From a virus: a stretch of 29,599 bases of DNA. Below, one piece after another: positions 4,290 to 22,669 of the stretch. The stretch is from the IMG/VR virus record IMGVR_UViG_3300029448_000274, positions 1 to 29,599 of that record; one strand, 5' to 3'. Below the pieces are notes generated by a model. The model was not told the origin of the DNA and did not search any database. It saw only the letters and a list, made by a program, of their open reading frames with translations. Position numbers and translations under genes: made by a program. Position 1 is the stretch's first letter; each line of letters starts with the position of its first letter.

Positions 4290-4769
4290 ATGATGAAAAA
4301 AGAAAATGACGGAGCTTCTAAGAAGTTTGAAGATAAAACTGCTGGAGGTAAAAGAAGAGCTCTTAAAAGAGCTAAAAAAAGAAAATACGGAAAAGGTGAA
4401 GCTGGAAAAGCTAAAGAAGCTGCTGAAGCATCTATAAAATTTGCTGAAGGAAATCTTGATATGATGGGTGCTAGTAAGAAAAAACCTAAAGGTGTTAAAG
4501 ATGCTGATACTGAATATATGCCAGTTGTGGACAGAGAAAAAGATGCAATGAAAAAAGGTGCTTCAATGATGAAGAAAAAAGGCGCATCAATGGCTATGAA
4601 AAAAGATGGATCAAGTATGTCAGGAGAGAAGTATGACGCTAAAGAAGCTTATAACAAAAACTTATCTGCTTCTGCTAGATTACATTATCTAGAAAATAAC
4701 AGAGCTGACAAAAAAGCTAAAGGAAAAGGACACAGAAGTCCTATAATGAAACATATGAGAGGGATTTAA
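4290..4769 (+). CDS. Lys-rich basic protein with repeated GAS motif
   Basis: A 159-residue, very basic, probably disordered protein with many Lys-Lys and Lys-Ala runs. The tripeptide Gly-Ala-Ser occurs at residues 8-10, 60-62, 90-92 and 98-100, usually next to Lys, Asp or Met (NDGASKK, MMGASKK, KKGASMM). The same motif recurs in five other basic proteins downstream. The N-terminal pattern MMKKENDGAS closely resembles the start of the protein at 10880 (MKKENGAS). No enzyme motif is visible. It may bind DNA or be packaged in the virion, inferred from charge and location between fibre genes. An in-frame ATG follows directly, so the true start may be one codon later. Confidence 0.6.
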   Translation: MMKKENDGASKKFEDKTAGGKRRALKRAKKRKYGKGEAGKAKEAAEASIKFAEGNLDMMGASKKKPKGVKDADTEYMPVVDREKDAMKKGASMMKKKGASMAMKKDGSSMSGEKYDAKEAYNKNLSASARLHYLENNRADKKAKGKGHRSPIMKHMRGI

Positions 4770-4770
4770 T

Positions 4771-5124
4771 ATGAGCTTAAAAACTAACAGACATGGGGCT
4801 AGCCAAAAGAATGGTTTAACCCCTGGAGGAAAAACAAATAGGTCAATGACAAATTTAGGTACTAAGGCTATTAACAGAGCTGCTAACTCTGGTAGAAAAC
4901 CTAAATACACTGACTCAGGTCAAAATTATAGAGATGCAAATAATAAATTAGTAAAAGGAACTAATGTTGATGAAGGTGAATTGTCACCTGTAATAAGAAA
5001 ATCTCCTGAAAGACCTTATGTAAAAGCTAGCAAAGAATCTATGTATTCAGGTGAAAAACTTTACTTAACTAACAAGCCTTTAAAAATAGGAAACAAATTA
5101 ACTAAAGCTAAATACAAAAAATAA
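4771..5124 (+). CDS. Small basic hypothetical protein with N-terminal GAS motif
   Basis: A 117-residue basic protein rich in Lys, Asn and Gly. It starts one base after the stop of the preceding gene and has GAS at residues 9-11 in the context RHGASQK. No domain or membrane segment is recognised. The composition (GKTNRSMTNLG, GRKPKYTDSG) suggests an extended, flexible protein. Position and motif tie it to the neighbouring Lys-rich protein at 4290 and to the basic proteins around 9.5-15 kb. The function is unknown. Confidence 0.55.
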   Translation: MSLKTNRHGASQKNGLTPGGKTNRSMTNLGTKAINRAANSGRKPKYTDSGQNYRDANNKLVKGTNVDEGELSPVIRKSPERPYVKASKESMYSGEKLYLTNKPLKIGNKLTKAKYKK

Positions 5125-5127
5125 ATT

Positions 5128-6885
5128 ATGGCTGTACTATATACTTACCCTATAAAATCAACACCAGCAAATAGAAATGATTTAGTTATAATATCAGACT
5201 CAAGAGATGGTAATAAAACTAAGCAAATAGCTGTAGCTAATCTACCAGGTAGTGCTAGTTTTTCTGGAATTGGTGGGAGTGGTACAGTTAATTATATTCC
5301 AAAATTTAGTACAAGCACTGACTTAGTAAATAGTATAGTATATGAGACGGCTTCTACAATTGGTATTGGAACAACTGCTCCAGATTCTATACTAACAGTA
5401 GAAGCAGCTACTGCTAACGTTGGTATACCTGTTATAAAAAGTTCTGTCAATGGATTTGCTAACGGTTTTACTCTTATAGGGGATAATTATCTTACAGGTG
5501 AAAGTCAATTTAATCTTGGAATTTCTTATAGTGGAGCAAATGGAGTTCTTTCAAGAGGTGTAAAAGTTAGTAACACATCAGATGATGTTTTCTTATCATC
5601 TCAAGATGCTTATTCTACAAATCCAAATGCTTTTATACTGGATAAAGATGGTTCTTTTAGATTTCTTAATACTTCGACAAATGCTTCTACTTCTGTTGGT
5701 ACAGCAGTTAGCTTAAGTGAAAGAATGCGTGTTGATAACAATGGTAATGTAGGTATTGGAACTACATCTCCATTTAAGAAATTTACTGTTAGAGATGGTG
5801 CTGATACAAAAGTAACTGCGTTAGGCTCATCATCTAATGACCCAGTATTTTTTGCTAGTGATTCATCAGGTAACTTAGATAGAGTATTTATGCGTCAAAT
5901 ATCTAGTAATGCTGTTTTTGTTGGAGATATTGACGACAACGACGGTGACTTAGTTGGTAGAGCAGGAGGAGTATCAGAATTTATAGTAAAAAATGGTGGA
6001 AACATAGGTATGGGCGTTAATGTAGGAAGTGTTGATGCTAAACTAGACATATTAGACACGGTTAATCAAACTTCAATACGTGTAACAAATAATAATTACA
6101 ATAATTACTTAATACAAAAAAGACGTACTGATGATAGTCAAAAGCTAGGTATTAAAGAAGCCGGCTCTAACGGAGGTATGTCTTTAGTTACTGCAGACAG
6201 TGAAAGAATGCGTATAACCTCTGACGGTAAAGTTGGTATTGGAACTACTAGTCCAAGTAACAAACTTACTGTAGGTACTCTTAGTAATGAAACTAATATA
6301 GCATGTGCTTCCACTGGTTTTGATAGTCTTAGATTAGGACTGTTAACATTTCCAGCTGCTGCTGGATGGTATAGAGTGGCACAATACGCAACCGCAAGTG
6401 CTAGAGGTGGCGCTCGTATAGACTTATGTGTAACAGGAGGTGACTTTGCCCCAGTCACATACTCTATTGATTATTTTAAATCTTACACTCAATCAGGAAC
6501 AGAGCATACTTTAAAACTAGAACAATATGGTGGACAAACTCATGTAACCAAGGCTAGAATAGCAGTTGATGGTAGTAATACTTTTGTTGAAGTTTATAAA
6601 AATGCAACTACAGCTTCTGGGAATCCAGTAACAATGCCTGCTCAAGTTCACTTTAACAGACTTATTGGAGAAAGTGGAGGTTCTTTTCCTCTGTTTGGAA
6701 CTCCAGCTTCAGGCTCCGGTTCAACATCTTTAAAAGAAGTAGAATTTATTGTAAAAGGAACTTCTGTAGAATCCCTAAGAGTACAAGGTGGGAAATTAAA
6801 TTTAAAAAACTTACCTACTTCTACTAGTGGCTTAGTAGCTGGAGATATTTACAATGATGGAGGAACTTTAAAAATAGTTTCATAA
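5128..6885 (+). CDS. Large tail fibre with GIGTTSP collar repeats
   Basis: A 585-residue tail fibre. Residues 1-40 share the attachment module of the protein at 904 (TYPIKSTP, then LVIISDS and KTK). Several copies of the beta collar motif G-VGIGTTSP-KLTV occur (IGIGTTAPDS, NVGIGTTSPF, KVGIGTTSPS). A central region near residues 395-535 has longer beta strands and could be the receptor-binding part. The C-terminus ends LPTSTSGLVAGDIYNDGGTL, a short terminal module found in other phage tail proteins. Unlike the fibre at 2671 it has no S74 chaperone. Receptor binding is inferred from family features. Confidence 0.75.
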   Translation: MAVLYTYPIKSTPANRNDLVIISDSRDGNKTKQIAVANLPGSASFSGIGGSGTVNYIPKFSTSTDLVNSIVYETASTIGIGTTAPDSILTVEAATANVGIPVIKSSVNGFANGFTLIGDNYLTGESQFNLGISYSGANGVLSRGVKVSNTSDDVFLSSQDAYSTNPNAFILDKDGSFRFLNTSTNASTSVGTAVSLSERMRVDNNGNVGIGTTSPFKKFTVRDGADTKVTALGSSSNDPVFFASDSSGNLDRVFMRQISSNAVFVGDIDDNDGDLVGRAGGVSEFIVKNGGNIGMGVNVGSVDAKLDILDTVNQTSIRVTNNNYNNYLIQKRRTDDSQKLGIKEAGSNGGMSLVTADSERMRITSDGKVGIGTTSPSNKLTVGTLSNETNIACASTGFDSLRLGLLTFPAAAGWYRVAQYATASARGGARIDLCVTGGDFAPVTYSIDYFKSYTQSGTEHTLKLEQYGGQTHVTKARIAVDGSNTFVEVYKNATTASGNPVTMPAQVHFNRLIGESGGSFPLFGTPASGSGSTSLKEVEFIVKGTSVESLRVQGGKLNLKNLPTSTSGLVAGDIYNDGGTLKIVS

Positions 6886-6904
6886 AAAAAAATTAAATAA
6901 CCGA

Positions 6905-6927
6905 ACTATCGAGTGATAGTATATAAT
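6905..6927 (+). promoter_or_regulatory. Hairpin abutting a TATAAT box ahead of the chaperone cassette
   Basis: ACTATC (6905-6910) and GATAGT (6915-6920) form a perfect six-base stem with a GAGT loop. A consensus -10 hexamer TATAAT lies at 6922-6927. No good -35 is visible 17 bases upstream. The inverted repeat could be an operator or a small stem, and the region could drive the cassette with the GroEL homologue. This is suggestive only. Confidence 0.3.
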
Positions 6928-6956
6928 AACCAACGTTTAACTTAAAACCAAATACA

Positions 6957-7247
6957 ATGACGTTTTTATATACCCGCACTAATACGTGGTCTAGTGCACC
7001 ACAACCAACAGAAGATACCATTAAGTACTGGAAGCATATTTCAGAAAAGAAAAACTGGAGAATAGTACAATTACCTAATGGATTTTTACAAACCGAATAT
7101 AAATCTATCGACTCAGATGACTGGATCGATGTTACCAGAAGAGAAACGTTAGCTGGAGCAGAACAAGCAATAGATGCTTCTATTGAACATTATTCTAAAA
7201 AGCTAGAGTTTACCAAAGGACCGAAAGTAGTTAAAACCTTCGAGTAG
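6957..7247 (+). CDS. Small conserved-looking hypothetical protein before groEL
   Basis: A 96-residue soluble protein that I do not recognise by name. It has an aromatic N-terminal half with WKHISEKKNWRIVQLPNGF, an acidic middle (SDDWIDVTRRET) and a C-terminal helix (EQAIDASIEHYSKKLEF) ending in VVKTFE. The pattern of a small beta-sheet followed by a helix looks like a folded domain, not a disordered protein. It ends with TAG, 32 bases before the GroEL homologue, and may be co-transcribed with it. The function is unknown. Confidence 0.6.
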   Translation: MTFLYTRTNTWSSAPQPTEDTIKYWKHISEKKNWRIVQLPNGFLQTEYKSIDSDDWIDVTRRETLAGAEQAIDASIEHYSKKLEFTKGPKVVKTFE

Positions 7248-7257
7248 TATTCAAAAC

Positions 7258-7282
7258 AAATCAAATTAAATTAAATTAAATG
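7258..7282 (+). repeat. Iterated pentanucleotide leader of groEL (AAATN type)
   Basis: Five in-register pentamers AAATC, AAATT, AAATT, AAATT, AAATG. The fifth contains the start codon at 7280. A near-copy AAAAC precedes them at 7253. This is among the longest runs in the window and lies before a gene that is likely to be highly expressed. Confidence 0.9.
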
Positions 7283-8827
7283 CAAGAAATAAAGTTAGTT
7301 AAAAATCTGGCTTTTGGCGATACAGCTAGAAGTCAGATATTAACTGGCGTTGAAAAACTTACTAATGCGGTAGGGTCAACGTTAGGAGCAAGTGGTAAAT
7401 GTGTTATATTAGAAGATGCTAATGGTATGCCACAAATAACAAAAGATGGAGTAACAGTGGCTAATTCAATTACGCTACAAGATTCTATAGAAAACATTGG
7501 AGCGACACTTATTAAACAAGCAGCTCAACGAACAGTATCAGATGCAGGTGATGGAACAACTACAGCAACTGTTTTAGCAAAAGCAATACTAGATCAAGCA
7601 CAAGCTCACAATTTACTAGAAGATAGTAGAATAATGAAAGAAGGTATTGATAGTGCTGTTAAAAAAGTATTAAACTATTTAAATAAAAATAGTAAAAAAG
7701 TAACAGGTAAAAAAATAGACCAAGTAGCTACTATATCGGCTAACAATGATATAGAGTTAGGTAAAGTTATAGGAGAAGCGTTTAAGTTAGTAGATGAAAC
7801 AGGAGTTGTTATGATGGAAACAAACGAACAACCTGAGACTGTAGTAGAATTAATAGAAGGTGTTCAATATGATCAAGCATTAAAAAACAACCATTTTATT
7901 ACTAATAAAGAAAAAGGCACAGCTGAACTAGATAATCCATTAGTTCTTATAGTTGAATCAGTTATACCTAATGTTAGAAAAATACAGTCAGTCCTTGAAC
8001 ATGTTATTAAAAATGGTAAGAGCTTACTTATCATTGCTGATGTTGACCCACAAGTGGTTTCCGCGCTGGCCATGAATAAATCTAAAGGCAATATAAAAGT
8101 TAACATCATAGATGCACCAGTATACGGAATCAGCAAAAAAGATGTATTATCAGATCTATGTGCTGTGACTGGTGCTACACTTATTAATGAAGACTTAGGA
8201 GATGATATGGATATTATACAACCTGAGCATTTAGGATCATGTATTAAATCTATAACAAACCACGAAGATACAATATTAAAAGTTGATTTAACAGAGAATA
8301 AAGAAGTTAAAGAAACTATTGCTTTATTAGATAAGAACATAAAAGAAACTAAAAACCCTAATATTATAGTTAGACTAGAAAGAAGACTAGCTAAACTAAA
8401 AGCTAAAGTAGCTACGGTTAAAGTTGGGGCAAACTCAGAAATAGAATTAAAAGAGAAGAGAGATAGAGTAGAAGATGCTATTTGTGCTACAAAAGCTGCG
8501 ATTAAGGAAGGTATAGTGCCAGGTGGTGGTATAGCTTTATTAAATGCTGCACAACATTTAGAACCTAAGTCAATGGGCGAAGAAGTACTTTATTGTGCTA
8601 TCAAAGAGCCTTTTAAATTGATATTAAAAAATGCTGGTGTAGAAAATTATGAAACTCCAGAAGTAAAAGGTTTAGGATTAAATGTGGTTACAGGAAAAAC
8701 GGTTGATATGGTAAAAGCCGGAATTATAGATCCTTTACTAGTTACTAAGAGTGCATTACTTAACGCAGCTTCAGTAGCTACTACTATATTATCAACTGAT
8801 TGTGTAATTAATAATATAAGAGCATGA
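7280..8827 (+). CDS. groEL: Phage-encoded GroEL-like chaperonin (Hsp60)
   Basis: A 515-residue group I chaperonin that would refold phage structural proteins in an ATP-driven double ring. ATP-site signatures are intact: ITKDGVTVA (residues 53-61), DGTTT with Asp91 (E. coli Asp87 equivalent), GIVPGGG ending at Gly417, and the catalytic Asp399 in RVEDA (E. coli Asp398). The apical substrate groove is changed: aligned with E. coli, Tyr199, Tyr203 and Leu234 positions are Leu, His and Gln, while the Phe204 and Leu237 positions are kept. It ends NNIRA and lacks the Gly-Gly-Met tail, hence the short length. It overlaps the co-chaperonin gene by four bases. Other phage GroELs (EL, OBP) are known, though these usually lack a paired GroES. 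Confidence 0.95.
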   Translation: MQEIKLVKNLAFGDTARSQILTGVEKLTNAVGSTLGASGKCVILEDANGMPQITKDGVTVANSITLQDSIENIGATLIKQAAQRTVSDAGDGTTTATVLAKAILDQAQAHNLLEDSRIMKEGIDSAVKKVLNYLNKNSKKVTGKKIDQVATISANNDIELGKVIGEAFKLVDETGVVMMETNEQPETVVELIEGVQYDQALKNNHFITNKEKGTAELDNPLVLIVESVIPNVRKIQSVLEHVIKNGKSLLIIADVDPQVVSALAMNKSKGNIKVNIIDAPVYGISKKDVLSDLCAVTGATLINEDLGDDMDIIQPEHLGSCIKSITNHEDTILKVDLTENKEVKETIALLDKNIKETKNPNIIVRLERRLAKLKAKVATVKVGANSEIELKEKRDRVEDAICATKAAIKEGIVPGGGIALLNAAQHLEPKSMGEEVLYCAIKEPFKLILKNAGVENYETPEVKGLGLNVVTGKTVDMVKAGIIDPLLVTKSALLNAASVATTILSTDCVINNIRA

Positions 8828-9084
8828 AAGCAGTAGGTAAGTTTATAGTAATTGAACCAATCAAAGAAGTTGATGTTCAAACAAAGGGTGGATTAATTCT
8901 AGCTGAAAAGCAAAGAGAAGATGTTAGATATAGAAGAGCTAAGGTTATAGAACCTGGCTCTGAAGTATCTGTATTAAAAAAAGGTGATGAAATTTATTAC
9001 GATAAATCATCTGGATTTAATATTGAAATAAATAAAGAAGAATATAAAGTTATTAAAGAGTTTGATGTAGTTATTATACTATGA
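8824..9084 (+). CDS. groES: Phage co-chaperonin, GroES-like with shortened roof
   Basis: An 86-residue GroES-type beta-barrel. The mobile loop contains GGLILAEKQ, whose LIL tripeptide corresponds to the E. coli IVL contact with GroEL. The barrel signature KKGDEIYYD matches VKVGDIVIF. Between VIEPG and KKGDE about nine residues are missing relative to E. coli, which is where the roof hairpin sits. The T4 co-chaperonin gp31 is known to lack this roof, which enlarges the folding cage for its capsid protein, so a similar adaptation is inferred. Start and stop both overlap neighbours through ATGA, so it is coupled to groEL. Confidence 0.9.
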   Translation: MKAVGKFIVIEPIKEVDVQTKGGLILAEKQREDVRYRRAKVIEPGSEVSVLKKGDEIYYDKSSGFNIEINKEEYKVIKEFDVVIIL

Positions 9085-9515
9085 GAAAGTTAACTTCTAG
9101 TGATTTAAAAGAACTAGGTTTACTTAAACATTACAGAATAATTAGAAAGTGGGCTTGTAAAACTAATGACTTAAATGATGCAGATTTAGAACTATTGATA
9201 TATCTCGATGCTATAGATATGTTTACTAAAGATGATTTTATAAAAGGTACGTACTCATTCAGCTGGGATAACAGGCGCTGGAACAGATTATTGAAACAAG
9301 GGTGGATCACAGTGTGGAGAAAAAGAAACCGCACAACTCAAAAATATCATATATATAAAGTTTCCTTCAAGTGCAAACAGCTGATAAGTCGCATGTACCG
9401 TATTATGTTAGGCGAAGAAGATATGCCTACAACTAAATTAGAAAAAAGTAATAGATATAGTTATAAAGTAATTACTAAATCAATAGATTACGTTAACAAA
9501 GACAAAACAAGATAA
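9081..9515 (+). CDS. Putative winged-helix-like conserved phage protein
   Basis: A 144-residue basic protein overlapping the co-chaperonin stop by four bases. Residues about 15-95 look like a helix-turn-helix/winged-helix arrangement: a helix (LNDADLELLIYLDAIDMF), then FTKDDFIKGTYSFSWDNRRW, a LLKQGWI segment and a basic beta wing (VWRKRNRTTQKYHIYKVS). I recall similar unnamed proteins in marine phage metagenomes, but no function. It could bind DNA as a late regulator or be a virion protein. Neither is shown by the sequence. Confidence 0.55.
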   Translation: MRKLTSSDLKELGLLKHYRIIRKWACKTNDLNDADLELLIYLDAIDMFTKDDFIKGTYSFSWDNRRWNRLLKQGWITVWRKRNRTTQKYHIYKVSFKCKQLISRMYRIMLGEEDMPTTKLEKSNRYSYKVITKSIDYVNKDKTR

Positions 9516-9516
9516 T

Positions 9517-10566
9517 ATGCCTTATAAACAACCTAAAAATACTCCCCTGCATAATGATGGTGCTTCAGAGCCTATAACAGCTGCCATATTAGGAGGTATA
9601 AAACTTGCTAAAGTAGCTGTGGCAGGTGTAAAAGCTGCAAAAGCAGCTAAAGTAGCCGCGGCAGCAGCAAAGGCTGCAAAAGCTGCTAAGGCTGGTAAAG
9701 TTGCTTTAAAAGCTGGTAAGTTTGCTAAAACAGCAAAAGCTGCTTCTACCGCTGCTAAAACTGGTAAAGCAACAGCATCAACGGCTAAAGCAACAACAAA
9801 AGGTGCTGTTAAACTAACTCAAAATACTATGCCTAAACTTCAAAAACTTGGAGAGGCCGGTCAAAAAAGTGTTACAAAAGCTCAAAAGTTTGCTAAATTT
9901 TCTTCTAAACACCAGAAGTTAGGTAAAGCAGTAGAAAAAACAAAGTCATTAGCTGGAAAAGCAAAAGGAATGAGTGATTATGGTTTTGATAAAGCAGCTG
10001 AAATAACAGGCCAAGATGCTGGTGATTTAAAATCAAGAGTAGCTGAAGCAGGTATTAATAAAGCTAATGAAGCAGAAGCAGCAATAAAATCAAGAAATGA
10101 TAGTTCTGTTACGGCTGAAGATTTGAATAAGCCGCTAGGCTTAACGCGAAACGAAACAGAACCTCTAGACCCGAGATATGAAGCAAAAGACCAGCCAAGT
10201 TCTTACAGTAATCCTTCCGGAGCTTCAATGAAAAGTAATATGCCTAAAGGTTATCAATCTAGCTCTGCTGATAACTTTAAAACTCCAAAAACCGATTACC
10301 AAAGGTTTTTTCAAAATTTAGCTAACAATAGTGTAAATGCTAATATAGGCGGTGTTAAAGTAAATGTAGGTCACGTGGGTTTAATTGCTGGTCATTTAGT
10401 AGGTAAAGGTGTTGACGCTGTTAAAGCAAAGAAAAGATTAAATACTCTTAAAAAAGAGAAAATAGCTAACAATGAGTCAGCAGCTAGAGCTAAAGAAGAA
10501 GAAAAGAATAAAAACATCATGCAACAACTAGATGATGAAAACAAAATGGAAAATTTAAAAGGATAA
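9517..10566 (+). CDS. Lys/Ala-rich histone H1-like protein with GAS motifs
   Basis: A 349-residue basic protein. Residues about 25-100 are nearly all Lys, Ala, Gly, Thr and Val in short KAAKAAK-type repeats, similar in composition to bacterial histone H1-like (Hc1) DNA-condensing tails. A short hydrophobic stretch (ITAAILGGI) precedes it. GAS occurs at residues 15-17 (NDGASEP) and 235-237 (SGASMKS). The C-terminal third contains a predicted helix/coiled coil (AKKRLNTLKKEKIANNESAARAKEEEK). It could condense DNA, be an internal virion protein, or act on ejection. These are inferences from composition and from location next to lysis and virion genes. Confidence 0.6.
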   Translation: MPYKQPKNTPLHNDGASEPITAAILGGIKLAKVAVAGVKAAKAAKVAAAAAKAAKAAKAGKVALKAGKFAKTAKAASTAAKTGKATASTAKATTKGAVKLTQNTMPKLQKLGEAGQKSVTKAQKFAKFSSKHQKLGKAVEKTKSLAGKAKGMSDYGFDKAAEITGQDAGDLKSRVAEAGINKANEAEAAIKSRNDSSVTAEDLNKPLGLTRNETEPLDPRYEAKDQPSSYSNPSGASMKSNMPKGYQSSSADNFKTPKTDYQRFFQNLANNSVNANIGGVKVNVGHVGLIAGHLVGKGVDAVKAKKRLNTLKKEKIANNESAARAKEEEKNKNIMQQLDDENKMENLKG

Positions 10567-10569
10567 ATT

Positions 10570-10722
10570 ATGCAAAAACCAGCAGGAAAAGTATTGAACA
10601 CCGGCAAGCCCGTTGTTGGTACAAGAGTAATGAGATCAAATAACTCTACAATAATGCCTACTCTTAGGAAAATAGATAACGTGCCTTATAAAGGCAACGC
10701 TGTTCTTAACGCTCAGAAATGA
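10570..10722 (+). CDS. Small basic hypothetical protein
   Basis: A 50-residue basic peptide (MQKPAGKVLNTGKPVV..., ending YKGNAVLNAQK) that starts three bases after the previous stop and overlaps the next gene by ATGA. The tight packing and an ATTATG start support a real gene. The pattern RVMRSNNSTIMPTLRKID suggests a short structured element. No domain is recognised. It may be another minor virion protein, by analogy with its basic neighbours. Confidence 0.5.
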   Translation: MQKPAGKVLNTGKPVVGTRVMRSNNSTIMPTLRKIDNVPYKGNAVLNAQK

Positions 10723-10883
10723 TAGCAAGTGAAGATTTGAAGTTGTATTTACTAAATGCATCTTCATTTACTCTAGCTAGCTTAAACTGGATAGAACCGG
10801 CTTTAGAAATACTCTTGTTATCTTTAACAATTGGTTATACTGTACATAAGTGGTATTTAATAAATAAAAAAAATAAATTATGA
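10719..10883 (+). CDS. Single-pass small membrane protein, possible lysis accessory
   Basis: A 54-residue protein with one hydrophobic segment near residues 28-47 (ALEILLLSLTIGYTVHKW) and a basic C-terminus (INKKNKL), consistent with the C-terminus in the cytoplasm. It overlaps both neighbours (ATGA upstream and ATGA downstream), a strong sign of a real coupled gene. Similar short proteins with a terminal IGYTVHKW-like pattern are, as I remember, common in marine phage genomes near structural genes. A holin or lysis-accessory role is possible because the endolysin is only 0.7 kb downstream, but that is inference. Confidence 0.55.
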   Translation: MIASEDLKLYLLNASSFTLASLNWIEPALEILLLSLTIGYTVHKWYLINKKNKL

Positions 10884-11260
10884 AAAAAGAAAATGGCGCT
10901 AGCAATTTTTTCTCTAACTTTAATGATAGGATAGATCAAAGCGCAGAAAGAACTAAAGAAATGATTGAACCTAAACAAGAAAGTATGGTTAATCAAGGAG
11001 AGTTTCAAGGATTTGGAAATAAAACTCTTCCAAACAAGTTTCAAGGATTTGGAAATAATCAAGTACAAAGTATAAATGAAAGTGAAGTACAACCTTTAAT
11101 GAATAATACTACTGGAGTTACACAGCAAAATATTAATGATTTTCCTATAAGCAATGGCACTGGATCTGCGAGACCAAATTTTGATCAAACAACAACAATG
11201 AATGTTGAAAAAGTAAACGAAGGAGCTGCAATGAGCAATGTTTTATTTAAAAAGAAATAA
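10880..11260 (+). CDS. Hypothetical protein with N-terminal GAS motif and FQGFGN repeat
   Basis: A 126-residue Asn/Gln-rich, probably flexible protein. It starts MKKENGAS, nearly identical to the N-terminus of the 4290 product. It contains the six-residue repeat FQGFGN twice (near residues 42 and 54) and ends in a basic LFKKK tail following EGAAMSN, a degenerate GAS. No known domain is seen. The shared N-terminal tag links it to the set of basic proteins, so a common virion location or processing is a reasonable inference. Confidence 0.55.
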   Translation: MKKENGASNFFSNFNDRIDQSAERTKEMIEPKQESMVNQGEFQGFGNKTLPNKFQGFGNNQVQSINESEVQPLMNNTTGVTQQNINDFPISNGTGSARPNFDQTTTMNVEKVNEGAAMSNVLFKKK

Positions 11261-11262
11261 TT

Positions 11263-11607
11263 ATGGCAACAACTTATAAATGGTCAATTAACCCAATGAA
11301 CGCACATATTCACGCTGAAGGCAAAGACAATGTTATATACACAGTACATTGGATTTATACTGGATCAGAAGAATCTGCAGGAAAAACTTACACAGCAAGT
11401 AACATAGGTAGTGAAGGTTTTACTTATGTAGAAGGTGATCCTTTTGTACCTTATGAAAATACTGAGGCTTTTGAAAATGTAGTTATAGGATGGCTAGAAA
11501 ATGCTTTAGATTTAGACACTATGAAAGCTGATATAGATGCGCAAATACAAAAACAAATTACACCAGTAAACGAAGATTTATATTTTACTTGGCAAAATCC
11601 TGCTTAA
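11263..11607 (+). CDS. Small conserved phage structural protein (DUF7936-like)
   Basis: A 114-residue soluble acidic protein. The N-terminal MATTYKWSINPMNAHI followed by VIYTVHWIYTG, FVPYE and VIGWLENALD matches a phage-specific family I remember as DUF7936, whose members are about this size and carry the same TYKWSI and VIGWLE signatures. The family has no proven function, although it is usually encoded among structural or lysis genes. The start follows the ATTATG style and the stop is three bases before the endolysin. Confidence 0.65.
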   Translation: MATTYKWSINPMNAHIHAEGKDNVIYTVHWIYTGSEESAGKTYTASNIGSEGFTYVEGDPFVPYENTEAFENVVIGWLENALDLDTMKADIDAQIQKQITPVNEDLYFTWQNPA

Positions 11608-11609
11608 AC

Positions 11610-12023
11610 ATGAGAAGTATAAAAGAAATTATAATACACTGCTCTGCTACTAGAGAAGGTCAAGAAATACCAGTTGAAACAATAAAAAAGTGGCATACTG
11701 AAGGTAGAGGCTGGACGGACATAGGTTACCATTTCTATATAGAACTAGACGGCACTATCAAAAAAGGTAGAGATATAGATAAAACAGGCGCTCATTGTAA
11801 AGGGCACAATCGTAATTCTATAGGATTATGTTATTGCGGAGGCGTAGAAGCTGACGGTAAGACACCAAAAGATACAAGAACAGAGGTTCAAAAAGAAAGT
11901 CTGTTACATGTGCTTAAAACATTAAAAGCAATGTATCCAGACGCTATTATTTATTCACATAATGAGTTTGCTAATAAAGCATGCCCATCATTTGACGCGA
12001 CGAAAGAATATGAAAATATCTGA
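11610..12023 (+). CDS. Endolysin: T7 lysozyme-type N-acetylmuramoyl-L-alanine amidase
   Basis: A 137-residue zinc amidase of the Amidase_2/PGRP fold, cutting the bond between N-acetylmuramic acid and L-alanine of peptidoglycan during lysis. Zinc ligands are visible as His10 (IIIHCSAT), His117 (YSHNEF) and Cys125 (KACPSFD), with catalytic Tyr40 (GWTDIGYHF) and Lys123, matching T7 lysozyme His17, His122, Cys130, Tyr46 and Lys128. The start at 11610 is preferred over an in-frame ATG at 11589 because the latter would overlap the upstream gene and add residues not found in the family. It has no signal peptide, so it needs a holin. Confidence 0.92.
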   Translation: MRSIKEIIIHCSATREGQEIPVETIKKWHTEGRGWTDIGYHFYIELDGTIKKGRDIDKTGAHCKGHNRNSIGLCYCGGVEADGKTPKDTRTEVQKESLLHVLKTLKAMYPDAIIYSHNEFANKACPSFDATKEYENI

Positions 12024-12405
12024 AAACACTGAGTTTAAAATTGATATAAAAACTGTAATTGGGATAATAATGCTAACAACAACACTAGTTGGTATGTATT
12101 ATACTTTACAAGAAGATATAGAAGCAGCTAAAGGTTTACCACCAGTAGAAGTAGGTAGACTAGAGTATGATCTAAAAGAAAAGTGGAACCACGAGAACAT
12201 TGAAGACATGTTAGAAAGAGTTAATATGTTAGAACAAGTTGACGATGTTATATTTGAAGAAATAGATGTGTTGTCTGGTTTAGTTAAAGATGGTACAGAA
12301 AGTGATGGTAAGTTACAAGAGCTTCAAAAGAAATTAGAAGACTTACACAAAAGAAAACCAACTGTGATAGTTAAAGAAGTTCAAGTAAGTAAAAAACGTA
12401 GATAA
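12010..12405 (+). CDS. Single-TM coiled-coil protein, possible lysis accessory (spanin-like)
   Basis: A 131-residue protein with one membrane segment at about residues 13-32 (IKTVIGIIMLTTTLVGMYY), preceded by a short polar N-terminus and followed by a long acidic coiled coil (EDMLERVNMLEQVDDVIFEEID, then KLQELQKKLEDLHKRK) and a basic end. This N-in, coiled-coil-out layout is that of inner-membrane spanins. The start at 12010 is chosen because it leaves a 14-base overlap with the endolysin, whereas the ATG at 11962 would add 16 residues unlike the rest. No outer-membrane lipoprotein partner was found, so spanin is a hypothesis. Confidence 0.6.
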   Translation: MKISENTEFKIDIKTVIGIIMLTTTLVGMYYTLQEDIEAAKGLPPVEVGRLEYDLKEKWNHENIEDMLERVNMLEQVDDVIFEEIDVLSGLVKDGTESDGKLQELQKKLEDLHKRKPTVIVKEVQVSKKRR

Positions 12406-12563
12406 TGGGAAAAATTAGTCCAGCTTGTAAAGCCGCAGCAAAAAAGAAATTTAAAGTATGGCCAAGTGCTTATGCTTCTGGCTGGGGTGTGAGATGTACT
12501 AAAGCTGGTGGACCAGGTAACTACGGTGGCGGATCTAAAAAAAGAAACCGTGGGAAAAGTTAA
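12405..12563 (+). CDS. Small basic Cys protein with KVWPSAYASG motif
   Basis: A 52-residue protein beginning MGKISPACKAAAKKK, with the motif KVWPSAYASG followed by two glycine-rich turns and a Cys (VRCTK). This motif defines a phage and giant-virus family of unknown function that I remember as DUF5872. It starts in a TAATG overlap with the preceding stop. The frame ends at 12561-12563, just after an A7 run (12537-12543), beyond which a second basic protein is read in the +1 frame. The two may be separate genes or one protein joined by a frameshift. See the findings. Confidence 0.65.
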   Translation: MGKISPACKAAAKKKFKVWPSAYASGWGVRCTKAGGPGNYGGGSKKRNRGKS

Positions 12564-13206
12564 AGGAGGCGGAACTAGTAAAGTATGCCTACCTGCTTCC
12601 AAGGTAAGATCAATGAGTCAAGCTGAAAGAGATAAAGTTGTCAATGCTAAAAGATCTGCAGCTTCTAAAGGCAAATACAAGAGATCAAGTTCTTCTAATG
12701 TAAAAGGTGCTCGTAAAAAAGGAGCTACGCTAAGAGACTGGTTTGAAAAAGAGAACTGGATTAATGTAGCTACAGGTGGACCTTGTGGTGGTAGTTCTAA
12801 AAAAACAAAAAGAAAAGATGGACCTTCAAAAAAATCAACTCCTTGTTGGGATGGTTTTATTAAAAAAGGTATGAAGAAAAAAGGCAATAGGATGGTTAAC
12901 AACTGCGTAAAAGTAGGTGGTCCTAGTGCAGCTGATCCTAAAAGAACAATAGGTAAAGGCAAAAATTTTAACAAAGCTAATCCTACTGGTACAGGAGGTA
13001 AAGCTGGAGGTGGTATGACACAAAAAGGTGTTAATGAATATAAGCGTAATAATCCAGGTAGTAAATTAAAAACAGCTGTTACAAAAGATCCATCAAAGCT
13101 AAAACCAGGTAGTAAAGATGCTAAGCGTAGAAAATCATTTTGTGCTAGATCAAAAAGCTGGAAAGGCGAAAGAGGATTAGCAGCTAGAAGAAGGTGGAAC
13201 TGTTAA
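12508..13206 (+). CDS. Basic Cys-rich protein (DUF5872/DUF6321-like)
   Basis: A 232-residue basic protein if read from GTG 12508; other in-frame starts are GTG 12550 and ATG 12613. It has segments that resemble phage basic-protein families of unknown function: KRSAASKGKYKRSS, GATLRDWFEKENWI and, at the C-terminus, GGMTQKGVNEYKRNNPGSKL, KRRKSFCAR and a terminal RRRWNC. Six or more cysteines are spread through the chain. It overlaps the 52-residue gene in a different frame, and the true start is unclear. A strong AAAGGAGG lies at 12562-12569, unusual in this genome, but no in-frame ATG is well placed after it. Function unknown; a virion DNA-associated role is possible. Confidence 0.65.
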   Translation: MDQVTTVADLKKETVGKVKGGGTSKVCLPASKVRSMSQAERDKVVNAKRSAASKGKYKRSSSSNVKGARKKGATLRDWFEKENWINVATGGPCGGSSKKTKRKDGPSKKSTPCWDGFIKKGMKKKGNRMVNNCVKVGGPSAADPKRTIGKGKNFNKANPTGTGGKAGGGMTQKGVNEYKRNNPGSKLKTAVTKDPSKLKPGSKDAKRRKSFCARSKSWKGERGLAARRRWNC

Positions 13207-13216
13207 ATAAAATATT

Positions 13217-13369
13217 ATGAAATCAAGAGGTTTAGGCGATAGCATAGAAAAGTTTACAAAGGCAACAGGTATAAAAAAAGTTGCAGATATGATACCAGGT
13301 GGTTGCGGTTGCGATGATCGTAAGCAATGGTTTAATAAAAATTTTCCTTACAACATGAATAAAAAATAA
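13217..13369 (+). CDS. Small Cys-motif protein (GCGC, R, FPY)
   Basis: A 50-residue protein starting MKSRGLGDSIEKFTKATGIKK and carrying GGCGCDDRK, then NKNFPY near the C-terminus. I recall small proteins with the same CGC-x2-R-x3-LN-x2-FPY arrangement in Bacteroidota phages and related elements, always uncharacterised. The two close cysteines could bind a metal or form a disulfide. An ATTATG start follows the upstream stop after ten bases, and an A/T leader separates it from the next gene. No function is known. Confidence 0.6.
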   Translation: MKSRGLGDSIEKFTKATGIKKVADMIPGGCGCDDRKQWFNKNFPYNMNKK

Positions 13370-13374
13370 ACGAA

Positions 13375-13794
13375 ATGGCTAAGAAATTTCCAGAAATAAA
13401 AGAAAAGAACGAAGGTAAGTTTACTAAATGGGTAGAAAAGAATATGGGTGGTATGGACACTTGTAAAGCTGCTAGTAAAATTATGAGATCTAAAACTAAA
13501 AAGTATTCTCCGGCTGTAGTCAAAATGGCTAACTATGCTAATAACTTTGGTTGTAAAACTAAGAAAAATGATGGAGCTTCAGTTCCATTAAAAGGTAAAC
13601 AAAAGAATTTACCAGAAGCTTTGCAAAAGAAAATACTAGCTTCTGATGGTGCTTCACTAAGATCTAAAAGAGCAGATAAGTTAGTTTCTCAAGGTAGAAC
13701 TCACAAGAAAATGAGTCCAGAACAAAAGAAAGAAGCTATAAAAAATAAAAGCGCAAGATTTACACAAGGTGCTTCTATGAAAAAGAAAAAATAA
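13375..13794 (+). CDS. Basic protein with three GAS motifs
   Basis: A 139-residue Lys-rich protein. Residues 5-60 look folded: FPEIKEKNEGKFTKWVEKN, then DTCKAASKIMR, then YSPAVVKMANYANNFGC, a pattern I remember from small conserved proteins of marine phages. The C-terminal half is disordered and contains GAS at 67-69 (NDGASVP), 92-94 (SDGASLR) and 132-134 (TQGASMKKKK, the end of the protein). Two cysteines may pair. It belongs to the set of small basic proteins between the endolysin and holin genes. Confidence 0.6.
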   Translation: MAKKFPEIKEKNEGKFTKWVEKNMGGMDTCKAASKIMRSKTKKYSPAVVKMANYANNFGCKTKKNDGASVPLKGKQKNLPEALQKKILASDGASLRSKRADKLVSQGRTHKKMSPEQKKEAIKNKSARFTQGASMKKKK

Positions 13795-13795
13795 T

Positions 13796-14011
13796 ATGAG
13801 AAATAGAGGTAGTAAAGGTAAATGTGGAAAAGCTTGGAAAGCTTGGGAAGCAGGCTATGCTAAGAAACCAGGTGGTAAAGAAGAAGCTGCTAGAGAAAGA
13901 AGAGAGTTTTATTGTGACAATGGCACTATAAAATTAAGACCTTCTACAGATGCTGACGTTCCTTTAACTGACAAGCAAATAAAAGCAGATAAAAAGAATA
14001 AAAACAAATAA
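13796..14011 (+). CDS. Small basic hypothetical protein with two Cys
   Basis: A 71-residue basic protein (MRNRGSKGKCGKAWKAWEAG) followed by an RRE-rich, helical part with a second cysteine (REFYCDNG) and a Lys/Asn-rich tail. It starts one base after the upstream stop, and its own stop overlaps the next ATG (TAATG), so it is coupled in an operon. No domain is recognised. The composition and charge match its neighbours. Confidence 0.55.
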   Translation: MRNRGSKGKCGKAWKAWEAGYAKKPGGKEEAARERREFYCDNGTIKLRPSTDADVPLTDKQIKADKKNKNK

Positions 14012-14916
14012 TGGGTTTTAAGCTAAAAGGATCACCATACGATGAGTCTAATATGAACATAGCTGTTTATAAAAAAGATTTAACAGACGGATCTATAGGT
14101 AAATCAAACCATACTGGTATAATAGTGCAAAGTGGTATTAGTCCAGAAGAAGAGCAAAATGTAATAGCTCATGAAAAAGTTCATCAAAAGCAACAAGCTA
14201 ATGGTGACTTAGATTATGACCAACAAAACTTCTACTGGAAAGGTAAAACTTATCCTAGAGAAAATCTAAACGAACACAACGAACAGTTACCTTGGGAGAA
14301 AGAAGCTTACAAGGCTAGTAAACAATCAAGGAAAAAACAAACAGAAATGGGATCAACAAAATTCAAATTAAAAGGATATAGAGGCAATAATAAACCTTTT
14401 AAACACATGGCCGAAAGAGGTTTAATAGGTGTGTCAATGCATGGCGCATCAGCTCCTGGAGAAGGTGATAAAGAAAAAGTAACTAAAACTACTAAAACAG
14501 ATGTTAATCCTGAGACAGGTATGAAACGTCTTACTACTACAACCACTAAACAAGGTGGTTCACCTGGTTCAAAAGGTAGTGTTAGATATGAGGATGCTTA
14601 TAAAAAAGCAGATAAAAGCAAATACCCTACATTAGAAGGTTTTACTAAAGCTGCTAAAGCATATAAAAAGAAAGACGTTAAAGTTGAAGAACAAATACCA
14701 ACTAGAAAAGCTAAAATAACTACATCTTCAGAGCCAAAGCTTAGAACTGAGATAACACCTGTTAAGAAAGAAACAAAAGTAGTTGAAAAAAAGAAAGAAA
14801 AGAAAAACACAACATATAAGCCTAAGAAAGTTAAAACAACAAAATACAAAAAGAAAAATAGAAAGCCTCAATTTTCTACAAAGTTTTCAACTTCATGCAC
14901 TAAAAGATCTTGTTAA
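14011..14916 (+). CDS. Predicted HExxH metallopeptidase fused to a basic tail
   Basis: A 301-residue protein. Residues 45-100 contain VIAHEKVHQKQQ with the zinc-metallopeptidase motif His54-Glu55-x-x-His58, and about 38 residues later LPWEKEAY with Glu96/Glu98 as candidates for the third ligand, an HExxH...E (gluzincin-like) arrangement. The segment DLDYDQQNFYWKGKTYP lies between. After residue 115 the chain becomes Lys/Thr-rich and probably disordered. It repeats the initial FKLKG (residues 3-7) at 118-122 and has GAS at 145-147 and two Cys at the end (SCTKRSC). It could process virion proteins or attack the cell envelope. Peptidase activity is inferred from the motif only. Confidence 0.65.
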   Translation: MGFKLKGSPYDESNMNIAVYKKDLTDGSIGKSNHTGIIVQSGISPEEEQNVIAHEKVHQKQQANGDLDYDQQNFYWKGKTYPRENLNEHNEQLPWEKEAYKASKQSRKKQTEMGSTKFKLKGYRGNNKPFKHMAERGLIGVSMHGASAPGEGDKEKVTKTTKTDVNPETGMKRLTTTTTKQGGSPGSKGSVRYEDAYKKADKSKYPTLEGFTKAAKAYKKKDVKVEEQIPTRKAKITTSSEPKLRTEITPVKKETKVVEKKKEKKNTTYKPKKVKTTKYKKKNRKPQFSTKFSTSCTKRSC

Positions 14917-15927: not shown

Positions 15928-16129
15928 TATAGGATCTGATTATAAAAATGATGCTATGCATTATTCTACTGGTCAAGAAGTTTATGGAGGTCACGTTATT
16001 AGTGACATAATATTTGAAAACAAAGATAGCTCTTATAATATTTTTATAATTAAAAATGAAGAAGTATTACCTTGGAAAAAATTTAACTCCAATATGGCCG
16101 TATCAGTAGAGTATGATCTTAAGTACTAA
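15905..16129 (+). CDS. Small conserved hypothetical protein
   Basis: A 74-residue protein starting MSKIRKISIGSDYKNDAMHY and containing GQEVYGGHVISDIIFE, a compact beta-rich domain. Its start at 15905 lies within the end of the previous gene (23-base overlap), and its stop overlaps the following ATG (TAATG). The overlap pattern and beta-strand periodicity support translation. I remember this sequence type beside terminase genes of marine phages. No function is established. Confidence 0.6.
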   Translation: MSKIRKISIGSDYKNDAMHYSTGQEVYGGHVISDIIFENKDSSYNIFIIKNEEVLPWKKFNSNMAVSVEYDLKY

Positions 16130-19164: not shown

Positions 19165-21570
19165 ATGCAAATACAAACTTATAATGGCAGTTCATTCCCG
19201 GATCAGGTTGTACCTGACGAGGTTAAAGAAAGTTTAGATTACGGTAGGCAAGTTGGTAGAGCGATTGAAGGAGATTGGTTTAGCGGTACTAGAACTGGTG
19301 TGTCAGGCAGGTATAACACTAATTATAATAATTTTAGAAATTTAAGATTATATGCAAGAGGCGAACAAACAGTTCAAAAATATAAAGATGAGCTAGCAAT
19401 TAATGGTGATTTATCTTATTTAAACTTAGACTGGAAACCAGTACCTATTATACCTAAGTTTGTAGATATAGTGGTCAATGGTATGGATGGCAAACTATAC
19501 GATGTTAAAGCTTATGCTCAAGATCCAGAGTCAATAAAGAAAAGAACTCAATATGCAGAATCTCTACTAAGAGATATAGAAGCAAAAAAACTTATAGATC
19601 AAATACAGAGTGTAACAGGTATGAACATGTATTCTACTTCTAACCCAGAAGATCTTCCTCAAAATAGGGAAGAGCTAGATGTGCATATGCAATTAACTTA
19701 TAAGCAATCAATTGAAATTGCAGAAGAAGAAGCTATAAATAACACTTTAGCTTTTAATAAATACGAACTTACTAGGAGAAGGATGGCAGAAGATTTAGTA
19801 GTGCTAGGTATTGGCGCTGTTAAAACTTCTTTTAATTTGTCTGAAGGTGTTACTATAAAGTACGTTGACCCGGCTGATTTAGTTTATTCATACACTGATG
19901 ATCCAAACTTTCAAGATATATGGTATGTGGGTGAAGTTAAATATATAAGTTTAAATGAACTTAAAAAAGAATTTCCCTACTTAGATGATAAAGATTTAGA
20001 GACAATACAACAATATCCTAGTAGTGCTAGTTATAACTATCAATTCAATGGCAGGCAAGACAATAACAGTGTAGCTGTTTTGTATTATGAATATAAAACG
20101 TATAGTAATCAAGTTTTTAAAATAAAAGAAACTAACACTGGTTTAGAAAAAGCTATTGAAAAACCAGATACTTTTAATCCACCTGAAAATGATAACTTTG
20201 ATAGAGTGTCAAGATCTATAGAGGTATTATATCAAGGAGCAAAAGTCTTAGGCCACGATATGATGTTAAGTTGGAAATTAGCTAATAACATGGTAAGACC
20301 AGATTCTAATTTAGTTAAAGTAAATATGAATTATAACATATGTGCTCCTAAAATGTATAAAGGCCGTATAGAATCTTTAGTTAGCAGAATGACAGGTTTT
20401 GCTGATATGATTCAATTAACCCATTTAAAGCTTCAACAAGTTTTAGCTAGAACAGTGCCAGATGGTGTTTTCTTAGACGTAGATGGATTAGCAGAAGTTG
20501 ATTTAGGTAATGGCACAAACTATAATCCAGCTGAAGCATTGAATATGTATTTTCAAACTGGTAGTATATTAGGTAGATCTATGACACAAGATGGTGGAGC
20601 AAACCCAGGTAAAGTTCCAATACAAGAACTACAGTCAGGATCAGGAGCTGCTAAAATGCAGTCTTTAATTCAAACTTATCAATATTATCTACAAATGATG
20701 AGAGATGTTACCGGTCTTAATGAAGCTAGAGATGGTAGTCAACCAAATAAAGATTCTTTAGTAGGCTTACAAAAGCTTGCTGCTGCTAATTCTAATACAG
20801 CAACTAAACACATAGTACAAGCTAGTTTATATCTATCAGCTAGAACATGTGAAAATATATCTTTAAGAATAGCTGATATGCTAGAGTTTCCTTTAACTAA
20901 AGAAGCCTTAAAATCAAGTATTAGTTCTTACAACGTAGGCACACTAGAAGACATGCAAAATTTAAACATGTTTGAGTTTGGTATATTTTTAGAGTTAGTT
21001 CCAGATGAAGAAGAAAAAGCTCAACTAGAACAAAATATACAAGTAGCATTACAGTCACAATCTATAAACTTAGAAGATGCTATAGAAATAAGAGATATTA
21101 AAAACTTAAAGCTAGCTAATCAATATATAAAAATCAAAAGAAAACAAAAAGCTGCTGAAGATCAACAAAAATCTCAAGCTAATATACAAGCGCAAGCTCA
21201 AGCAAATGCTGAGTCTAGTGAAAGAGCTGCTTTAGCTGAAATGCAAAAACAACAAGCACTAGCAGAAACAACTCTTCAAATAGCTAAAGGTAAATCAGAA
21301 TTTGAAATTAACAAAATGCAGCAAGACGCAGAGTTGAAAAAACAAATGATGCAGATGCAGTTTCAGTTCGACAAAGAGCTAAAACAAATGGAAGTAGATA
21401 GGCTTTTTGAAAAAGAAAAGCTAATAGAAGATAGAAAAGATACAAGAACAAGAATTGAAGGTACTCAACAGAGTGAAATGATAAATCAAAGAAATTTAAA
21501 TTTACCACCTATAGATTTTAAACAAGGTGGCGGGGTACAAGACTCTATACCCGAAGGATTATTAGAGTAA
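19165..21570 (+). CDS. Portal protein
   Basis: An 801-residue portal protein, the dodecameric ring through which DNA enters and leaves the head. Position (between large terminase and scaffold/capsid), size, and segments such as WKPVPIIPKFVDIVVNGMDG and the ETLGxxP-like ring region around LVSRMTGFADMIQ support the call. Residues about 655-765 form a long, Gln/Lys/Glu-rich helical segment (KAAEDQQKSQANIQAQAQAN, continuing to KLIEDRKD), comparable to the barrel or coiled-coil C-terminus of some podovirus portals. A Gly-rich, acidic tail follows. It starts immediately after the terminase stop. Confidence 0.85.
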   Translation: MQIQTYNGSSFPDQVVPDEVKESLDYGRQVGRAIEGDWFSGTRTGVSGRYNTNYNNFRNLRLYARGEQTVQKYKDELAINGDLSYLNLDWKPVPIIPKFVDIVVNGMDGKLYDVKAYAQDPESIKKRTQYAESLLRDIEAKKLIDQIQSVTGMNMYSTSNPEDLPQNREELDVHMQLTYKQSIEIAEEEAINNTLAFNKYELTRRRMAEDLVVLGIGAVKTSFNLSEGVTIKYVDPADLVYSYTDDPNFQDIWYVGEVKYISLNELKKEFPYLDDKDLETIQQYPSSASYNYQFNGRQDNNSVAVLYYEYKTYSNQVFKIKETNTGLEKAIEKPDTFNPPENDNFDRVSRSIEVLYQGAKVLGHDMMLSWKLANNMVRPDSNLVKVNMNYNICAPKMYKGRIESLVSRMTGFADMIQLTHLKLQQVLARTVPDGVFLDVDGLAEVDLGNGTNYNPAEALNMYFQTGSILGRSMTQDGGANPGKVPIQELQSGSGAAKMQSLIQTYQYYLQMMRDVTGLNEARDGSQPNKDSLVGLQKLAAANSNTATKHIVQASLYLSARTCENISLRIADMLEFPLTKEALKSSISSYNVGTLEDMQNLNMFEFGIFLELVPDEEEKAQLEQNIQVALQSQSINLEDAIEIRDIKNLKLANQYIKIKRKQKAAEDQQKSQANIQAQAQANAESSERAALAEMQKQQALAETTLQIAKGKSEFEINKMQQDAELKKQMMQMQFQFDKELKQMEVDRLFEKEKLIEDRKDTRTRIEGTQQSEMINQRNLNLPPIDFKQGGGVQDSIPEGLLE

Positions 21571-21580
21571 TTATTAACTA

Positions 21581-21595
21581 TTATATTATATTATG
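21581..21595 (+). repeat. Iterated pentanucleotide leader (TTATA type)
   Basis: TTATA, TTATA, TTATG, with the start codon (21593) in the last copy. This is the same design as the AAATN leaders with a different unit, and is also seen with three full units at 24580. Confidence 0.8.
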
Positions 21596-22669
21596 TCAGA
21601 AGAAATAAAAGAAACAAAAGGAGGAGAGTTGACTCAAGGTGAGTTTAAAATTAAGAAAAAACCAAGCATATTGGTTAAAGAAGACACTCCTTTAAAAGTA
21701 AATCTTAATAAAAAAGAACAAGAAGAAATAAAAGAAGAAGTTGATTTAAAAAAAGAAGAATCAACAGAACCTATTATACAAGAAATTACTGAAACTGAAG
21801 AAAAAAAAGAAGAGGTAAAAGAAAATACACCAACACCATTAGATTTACAACTACCTGAAGGTTTAGATAAATTAGTTAAATTTATGAAAGAAACAGGTGG
21901 AACAGTTAAAGACTATGTAAGACTAGACACTGATATTTCTAGTGTTGATGAAAATACTTTATTAAGAGAATATTACAAAAGTACTAAGCCACACTTAGAC
22001 AATGAAGAAATTGATTTTATAATGGAAGATCAATTTGGATTTGATAAAGAGTTGGACGAAGAGCGAGATATAAAGAAAAAGAAACTCGCTTTTAAAGAAG
22101 AAATTGCAAATGCCAAGAGTTTTTTAGAAGATACTAAGGATAAATATTACGAAGAGATCAAGTTGAGACCTAGTATAACCGAAGATCAACAAAAAGCAAC
22201 GGACTTTTTCAATAGATACAACAAAGAACAAGAAAGAGCAAACACACAACAGCAAGAGTTTATTGATTTAACTAACAAATATTTTTCCGAGGATTTCAAA
22301 GGTTTTGAGTTTAACGTAGGAGAAAAAAAGTTTAGTTATAATGTTAATAATGCTCAAGAGGTAGGCAAGACACAGGTTAAGTTATCAGAATTCACTAAGA
22401 TGTTCTTAAATGAAGATGGTTCAATGGCCGATCATGAAGGTTACCACAAAGCTATGTTTGCTGCTAGAAATGCTGATACTATAGCTAAACATTTTTATGA
22501 ACAAGGTAAATCCGATGGAATTAAAGATGTAGTTGATAAATCTAAAAATATAGAAGCGTCATCACGACCTCAAAATAATGGTGATATTTTTATTGGCGGA
22601 TTAAAAGTTAAAGCAGTGTCTGGCGTTGATAGTTCTAAGTTGAAAATTAAAACAAAAAATAAAAACTAA
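21593..22669 (+). CDS. Capsid assembly scaffold protein
   Basis: A 358-residue, strongly charged, helical protein directly before the major capsid gene, where the scaffold usually lies. The first 80 residues are Lys/Glu-rich and likely disordered (KKEQEEIKEEVDLKKEES). Central segments are helical (NAKSFLEDTKDKYYEEIK, then ATDFFNRYNKEQERANTQQQ), typical of scaffolds. The C-terminus is basic (KLKIKTKNKN), as in scaffolds that bind capsid protein by a basic helix-loop. No protease active site is seen, so the scaffold may be released intact or degraded by another enzyme. Confidence 0.72.
   Translation: MSEEIKETKGGELTQGEFKIKKKPSILVKEDTPLKVNLNKKEQEEIKEEVDLKKEESTEPIIQEITETEEKKEEVKENTPTPLDLQLPEGLDKLVKFMKETGGTVKDYVRLDTDISSVDENTLLREYYKSTKPHLDNEEIDFIMEDQFGFDKELDEERDIKKKKLAFKEEIANAKSFLEDTKDKYYEEIKLRPSITEDQQKATDFFNRYNKEQERANTQQQEFIDLTNKYFSEDFKGFEFNVGEKKFSYNVNNAQEVGKTQVKLSEFTKMFLNEDGSMADHEGYHKAMFAARNADTIAKHFYEQGKSDGIKDVVDKSKNIEASSRPQNNGDIFIGGLKVKAVSGVDSSKLKIKTKNKN

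Follow-up and report, generated by a model that had tools for sequence, protein, structure and literature searches.

A Gly-Ala-Ser tag on small basic late proteins of a marine podovirus follows portal and capsid phylogeny

Short targeting peptides in phage heads and protein shells

Many phage lineages carry small head proteins that are poorly understood, and detailed knowledge of their selection is limited to few systems. In phage T4, the internal proteins are variable basic proteins with a common capsid targeting sequence (CTS), which routes them into the head (PMC9026906). In IPI-IPIII, the CTS forms a propeptide of about 10 residues at the N-terminus, which the gp21 protease removes. Encapsulins, which are not viruses, use a targeting peptide such as SGSLNIGSLK to dock cargo to the lumen of an HK97-fold shell (PMC10960027). 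In crassvirus phicrAss001, a Bacteroidetes phage with a P22-like portal, a domain of a cargo protein is bound to the portal wing inside the head (PMC10172136).

The locus described here belongs to an uncultivated marine, flavobacteriophage-like podovirus with a P22-type portal. The window, meaning the whole stretch of 29,599 nucleotides that was analysed, is a partial genome from an IMG/VR viral record. Its terminase and portal match those of phages of Flavobacterium, Cellulophaga, Tenacibaculum, and Maribacter, and it also encodes a phage GroEL, an amidase, and a holin-like protein. Its small basic late proteins repeat the tripeptide Gly-Ala-Ser (GAS). As with the T4 CTS, a short peptide is common to small, variable, basic, and exchangeable phage proteins (PMC9026906). 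However, the window tag spans 3-5 residues and is not confined to an N-terminal propeptide; it lies at either terminus or in linkers, often in several copies. Like the encapsulin peptide, it is short, modular, Gly/Ser-containing, and placed on a flexible linker, with the window tags lying in low-pLDDT stretches of two models, one of them weak. The encapsulin peptide is longer, mostly sits at the C-terminus, and has two or three hydrophobic anchors in a fixed register, whereas GAS is without anchors, and the GSLxIGSLK pattern is absent from the consensus of 32 GAS contexts. The window capsid protein has a weak Pfam Crass_capsid match (E 0.01, below the cut-off). By analogy, the phicrAss001 cargo offers a precedent for where the tag might act, though not for the tag itself; these are large conserved proteins held by folded domains rather than by a common short tag.

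Short motifs repeated across many head proteins are also found in T4 and giant phages, where they are serine prohead protease cleavage sites. That motif is unlike GAS, and no prohead protease gene was recognised between the terminase and the tail genes in PHROGs/Pfam comparisons of this partial genome, with both libraries applied to part of the genes. The best reading by analogy is that the tag would work most like the T4 CTS and somewhat like encapsulin targeting peptides. The open-access literature searched contained no account of such a tag and none of concerted swapping of T4 tags.

The GAS tag and the proteins that carry it

The original prediction counted at least 12 GAS copies in six otherwise unrelated basic proteins and proposed a packaging signal, a docking motif, or a protease site. 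All 12 copies are present at the genes it named, here designated by their first nucleotide: 4290 (four), 4771 (one), 9517 (two), 10880 (one), 13375 (three), and 14011 (one). The six proteins are mostly lysine-rich and encoded at 4290-5124 and 9517-14916, in open reading frames (ORFs) called by simple rules. They are listed below with their tag sites and with a seventh protein that carries variant tags.

4290..4769, plus strand: basic protein of 159 aa, four GAS and one GSS; no PHROG/Pfam match
4311..4319, plus strand: GAS tag 1 (ENDGASKKF)
4467..4475, plus strand: GAS tag 2 (MMGASKKK)
4557..4565, plus strand: GAS tag 3 (KKGASMMKK)
4581..4589, plus strand: GAS tag 4 (KKGASMAMK)
4608..4616, plus strand: variant tag GSS (KKDGSSMSG); L086 and L089 carry GSSMYGKKH repeats here
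4771..5124, plus strand: basic protein of 117 aa, N-terminal GAS tag, kept in L086 and L089
4795..4803, plus strand: GAS tag 5 (TNRHGASQKN)
9517..10566, plus strand: K/A-rich protein of 349 aa, two GAS tags, both kept in L086, L088, L089, and L165
9559..9567, plus strand: GAS tag 6 (LHNDGASEP), directly after the N-terminal TPL
10219..10227, plus strand: GAS tag 7 (SNPSGASMK)
10880..11260, plus strand: protein of 126 aa, N-terminal GAS tag
10895..10903, plus strand: GAS tag 8 (KKENGASNFF)
12508..13206, plus strand: DUF6321 protein (Pfam match) with variant tags
12820-12828, plus strand: variant tag DGPSKK (DGASMKK in relatives)
12919-12927, plus strand: variant tag GGPSAAD (DGASAAD in relatives)
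13375..13794, plus strand: protein of 139 aa, conserved 62-aa core and GAS-clade-specific tail, three GAS tags
13573..13581, plus strand: GAS tag 9 (KKNDGASVPLKGKQKN); L087 and L120 have KSPAK at this homologous site
13648..13656, plus strand: GAS tag 10 (LASDGASLRSK); homologous place KSPATK in L087, DAPAKM in L120
13768..13776, plus strand: GAS tag 11 (FTQGASMKKKK, C-terminus)
14011..14916, plus strand: HExxH metallopeptidase-like domain (residues 15-114) and long disordered tail
14029-14037, plus strand: GSP in the N-terminal FKLKGSPYD of the 14011 protein
14428-14436, plus strand: GVS in RGLIGVSM of the 14011 protein (GAS in relatives)
14443..14451, plus strand: GAS tag 12 (SMHGASAPG), within a stretch of pLDDT below 50

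Within-protein shuffles of these six proteins, a set picked post hoc, give 0.62 expected GAS against the 12 observed (maximum 3 in 400). The excess over composition-matched expectation is also strong in an objective set of all 21 plus-strand ORFs with K+R above 12% and fewer than 450 aa: 11 GAS are observed where 1.27 are expected, 20,000 shuffles yield at most 7, and GAS ranks first among all tripeptides. In the same set, the anagrams GSA, AGS, ASG, SAG, and SGA are not enriched (0-1 each versus about 1.2-1.3 expected). The 12 copies use eight different codon triplets, and their serines are encoded by both TCN and AGY. Because the serine codons vary in this way, the repetition is a property of the protein rather than of the DNA, and this codon variety rules out an origin by DNA repeat or slippage. 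The sole further GAS among the called window proteins lies in GroEL at 7385, at a position common to the GroEL homologues of relatives, and has no connection with the tag.

Two details of the original prediction need adjustment. The motif is real, but the GAS spelling is too narrow; G[A/P/S/V]S fits better because the 12508 protein has GPS twice, the 4290 protein has DGSSM, and the 14011 protein has GVSM. GPS, GSS, and GVS occur in orthologues at the same sites as GAS; among orthologues of the 12508 protein, L089 has GAS at both variant sites, and L165 and L166 have it at the first. The description of the carriers as otherwise unrelated is nearly but not strictly true, since the tag-bearing tail module of the 13375 protein has been copied into the 10880 homologue of L086. 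The 12508 protein is itself a mosaic, whose KGATLRDWF half and RKSFCARS half are separate small proteins in relatives.

Family matches for the tagged proteins in PHROG/Pfam are limited to DUF6321 and uncharacterised PHROGs for the 12508 protein and a metallopeptidase-like domain for the 14011 protein; ejection proteins gave no significant match among them. A metallopeptidase that bears the motif had been predicted in this cluster, and the 14011 protein indeed combines an HExxHxxQ domain with a GAS tag. The domain weakly resembles PprI/IrrE zincins, and its HExxHxxQ is kept in aligned homologues. AlphaFold places the 14011 tags in a low-confidence stretch (residues 144-154), and the peptidase-like domain is mostly confident. 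The tags of the 13375 protein likewise fall where confidence is low, at residues 62-79 and 90-94, in a weak model (mean pLDDT 63) for which no fold match was found.

Conservation of the tag in close relatives

A search of IMG/VR with three anchors retrieved about 230 related loci. Outside this set, the 4290 core, the 13375 protein, and the 14011 domain have zero matches among the 50,697 phage records of INPHARED. Phage phi38:1 and the elemo phages share terminase/portal with the window, and inspection of their late genes revealed no such tags.

Enrichment of GAS across all relatives was considered and rejected, as one sub-clade alone has it. In nine relatives (L086, L088, L089, L163, L165, L166, L168, L173, and L174), GAS occurs 70 times against 8.9 expected. 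Because counts over related loci are not independent observations, distinct contexts and trees are given beside them. After similar flanks are collapsed, 98 GAS occurrences, in orthologues and in unrelated proteins, reduce to 32 distinct contexts with the consensus [D/K/N]-G-A-S-[M/K] and no fixed hydrophobic register. GAS is retained at orthologous sites while the codons differ, including TCA/AGT serine switches. In two longer contigs (L345 and L346), the excess is restricted to the late accessory cluster.

Tags take N-terminal, internal, and C-terminal positions, and new sites appear. In L165, L166, L168, and L089, the 13375 protein has N-terminal extensions that each finish in a tag directly before the common core. 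The core is also present in 13 relatives outside the GAS clade, where the protein mostly stops directly after it; the tagged tail belongs to the GAS clade. L096 carries GAS/GSS on accessory proteins without a detectable homologue in the window.

Replacement of GAS by other tags

The original prediction suggested searching relatives for conservation of the tag alone. The tag is conserved, although most relatives keep its positions and the idea rather than its letters. In 155 other relatives, GAS falls below expectation (57 vs 85), whereas SP[LFMY] is threefold enriched (316 vs 106 expected). Conversely, SP[LFMY] is at background in the nine GAS relatives (5 vs 6.7 expected). When tripeptides were ranked without bias in 636 basic accessory proteins of the other relatives, with similar contexts collapsed, SPF came first and SPL third; MAY and MAF, in second and fourth place, are N-terminal starts that often accompany SPF/SPL. 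SP tags are indeed often N-terminal, for example MSFKLKSPF, MAYKQSPF, and MAFKMKSPF. Assigning one top tripeptide to each locus by protein counts was dropped as too noisy at most loci.

In two cases, the same module bears GAS in one phage and SP in another. The linker PLxGKQKNLPxxLxxxIL has DGAS on either side in the window and KSPA on either side in L087, so that DGAS-PLKGKQKNLP-DGAS aligns with KSPA-PLVGKQKNLP-KSPA; in L120, its flanks are KSPA and DAPA. The second case is the C-terminal AYNKNLSASARLHYLENN module of the 4290 protein (AYxKNLxxSARLHYLEN), which has GAS flanks in the window and SPAK/SPMK flanks in L182 and L038. A possible third spelling, KAPM, is repeated in a similar protein of L090. 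Enrichment, conservation despite synonymous codon change, repeated gains, and concerted exchange together strongly support a functional tag on proteins that do not align.

Tag type and the head genes

Twenty genomes were labelled as GAS or not from their accessory proteins before the head genes were inspected. The label changes once on the portal tree and once on the capsid tree, and none of 500 shuffles needs as few changes. On the terminase tree, it changes three times, and a tree that holds the tag type together is rejected (AU p 0.014). The GroEL tree requires four changes (AU p 8e-7), and the tree of the 9081 protein requires three, where the rejection is not significant (AU p 0.066). The GroEL and 9081 genes sit among the tagged genes, and the terminase lies between the cluster and the portal; thus, neighbourhood alone fails to explain the pattern. 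The sharpest case is L096, whose capsid and portal fall in the GAS clade while its tagged proteins lack a detectable homologue in the window and its peptidase is short and divergent. GAS is represented in the trees by just five genomes, one of which (L163) has head proteins identical to those of the window, and two clades may coincide by chance of descent.

Three products of the head module are candidates for a protein that reads the tag.

19165..21570, plus strand: P22-type portal, candidate reader; phylogeny agrees with tag type
21593..22669, plus strand: charged protein between the portal and capsid genes, probable scaffold, candidate reader
22681..24165, plus strand: major capsid protein, candidate reader; phylogeny agrees with tag type

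The 21593 protein is probably a scaffold, judging from its position and composition, and its bit scores rank every GAS genome above every other genome. The tail-adaptor gene 27577 likewise tracks tag type, so the association spans the whole portal-to-tail block rather than one gene. Clade-private residues in the portal (E250Q, T377V) and capsid were considered as a guide to the reader, and their counts are no higher than in control clades; no contact site is therefore proposed.

Two observations concern recombination in this lineage. In L102 (G016), the portal groups with that of L085 and the capsid protein with those of L104/L114, so portal and capsid recombine with each other. GroEL and GroES are phage-encoded (7280-9084), and in these phages GroEL has recombined freely with respect to the head genes.

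A proposed docking or packaging role for the tag

The shared short functional tag of the original prediction stands. Among the functions it offered, the one favoured is docking or packaging, since tag type agrees with portal and capsid phylogeny; the protease site is disfavoured. We propose that GAS is probably a docking/packaging tag for small basic late proteins, read by the portal-scaffold-capsid module; binding and packaging are inferred. Small, basic, and largely disordered late proteins would bear one or more tag copies at their ends and between domains. The tag would be bound by the phage's own portal, scaffold, or capsid protein, and binding would bring these clients into the assembling head or onto it, where a position beside DNA would suit their positive charge. 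With many clients depending on one reader, a new reader type would call for a new tag in all of them: GAS here, and S-P-[LFMY] or KSPA in relatives. Given the agreement of tag type with portal and capsid, the portal-scaffold-capsid module is the most likely source of the reader. A portal reader is physically plausible, given that the phicrAss001 cargo is bound to the portal wing.

More tentatively, marine flavobacteriophage-like podoviruses may share an interchangeable address code, in which each phage type marks many non-homologous, small, and basic proteins with one tag (GAS, KSP, or perhaps KAPM) that coevolves with portal and capsid. Preferential loading of a phage's own clients would then amount to a self/non-self packaging code. 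If true, this would be a clear viral case of coevolution between many clients and one reader. Marine Bacteroidetes phages encode many uncharacterised proteins, among which a tag readable from sequence would also point out head-associated clients; the swap of tags in nature provides a specificity experiment ready to hand.

Alternatively, the tag could bind a host factor, such as a chaperone, protease adaptor, envelope protein, or modifying enzyme, with tag types following a host range carried by the structural/tail block. The behaviour of the tail adaptor, which associates tag type with the whole portal-to-tail block, fits this explanation, as does the serine in the tags, which could be modified. 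However, no obvious modification consensus is common to the S-P and G-A-S forms, and we consider a host reader unlikely.

A protease of phage or host origin, such as the 14011 metallopeptidase, could instead process the tag site and so free peptides or trim off propeptides during maturation. Phage head proteases are generally known to cleave many head proteins at a common motif (PMC10052503), and here a tagged peptidase-like gene lies within the cluster, the tags occupy disordered linkers, and the peptidase type differs between GAS and SP phages, L096 excepted. Yet the peptidase domain is present in GAS and SP phages alike, and one genome, L096, pairs GAS tags with a short, divergent peptidase 47% identical to that of the window. 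Tag copies lie inside conserved linkers and at several places within one protein, and tag type tracks portal and capsid. These tag positions, the L096 pairing, the presence of the peptidase in both phage types, and a head module in which the PHROGs/Pfam comparisons recognised no prohead protease make a cleavage site quite improbable.

It is very improbable that the repetition arose without function, through drift in low-complexity sequence, tandem duplication, or the copying of modules: the tagged proteins are fast-evolving and K/A/G-rich, and the 13375 tail module was copied into the L086 homologue of the 10880 protein, but GAS has 32 distinct contexts, persists while serine codon classes switch at orthologous sites, is not matched by its anagrams, and is substituted by another tag at the same places.

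Other genes of the lineage

Several genes outside the tagged set deserve mention. The 144-aa protein at 9081-9515 (phrog_17028, no known function) is 68-97% identical across the lineage and always lies close behind GroES, making it a good marker gene for these phages. The protein beside the terminase (16129-16722) has weak similarity to Cpn10 (Pfam E 0.09), and an elemo phage has a counterpart annotated as the co-chaperonin GroES; the window protein is possibly a second GroES-fold protein. Both long relatives contain a K/R-rich open frame of at least 3,100 residues (G002:C1:10729-19998 in L346 and G003:C1:40001-49744 in L345), distant from the tagged cluster, which perhaps encodes an ejected virion protein. 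The terminase gene of L296 (G016:C1:33074-35290) contains one in-frame TAA; the assembly may be wrong here, or the gene may be broken or interrupted.
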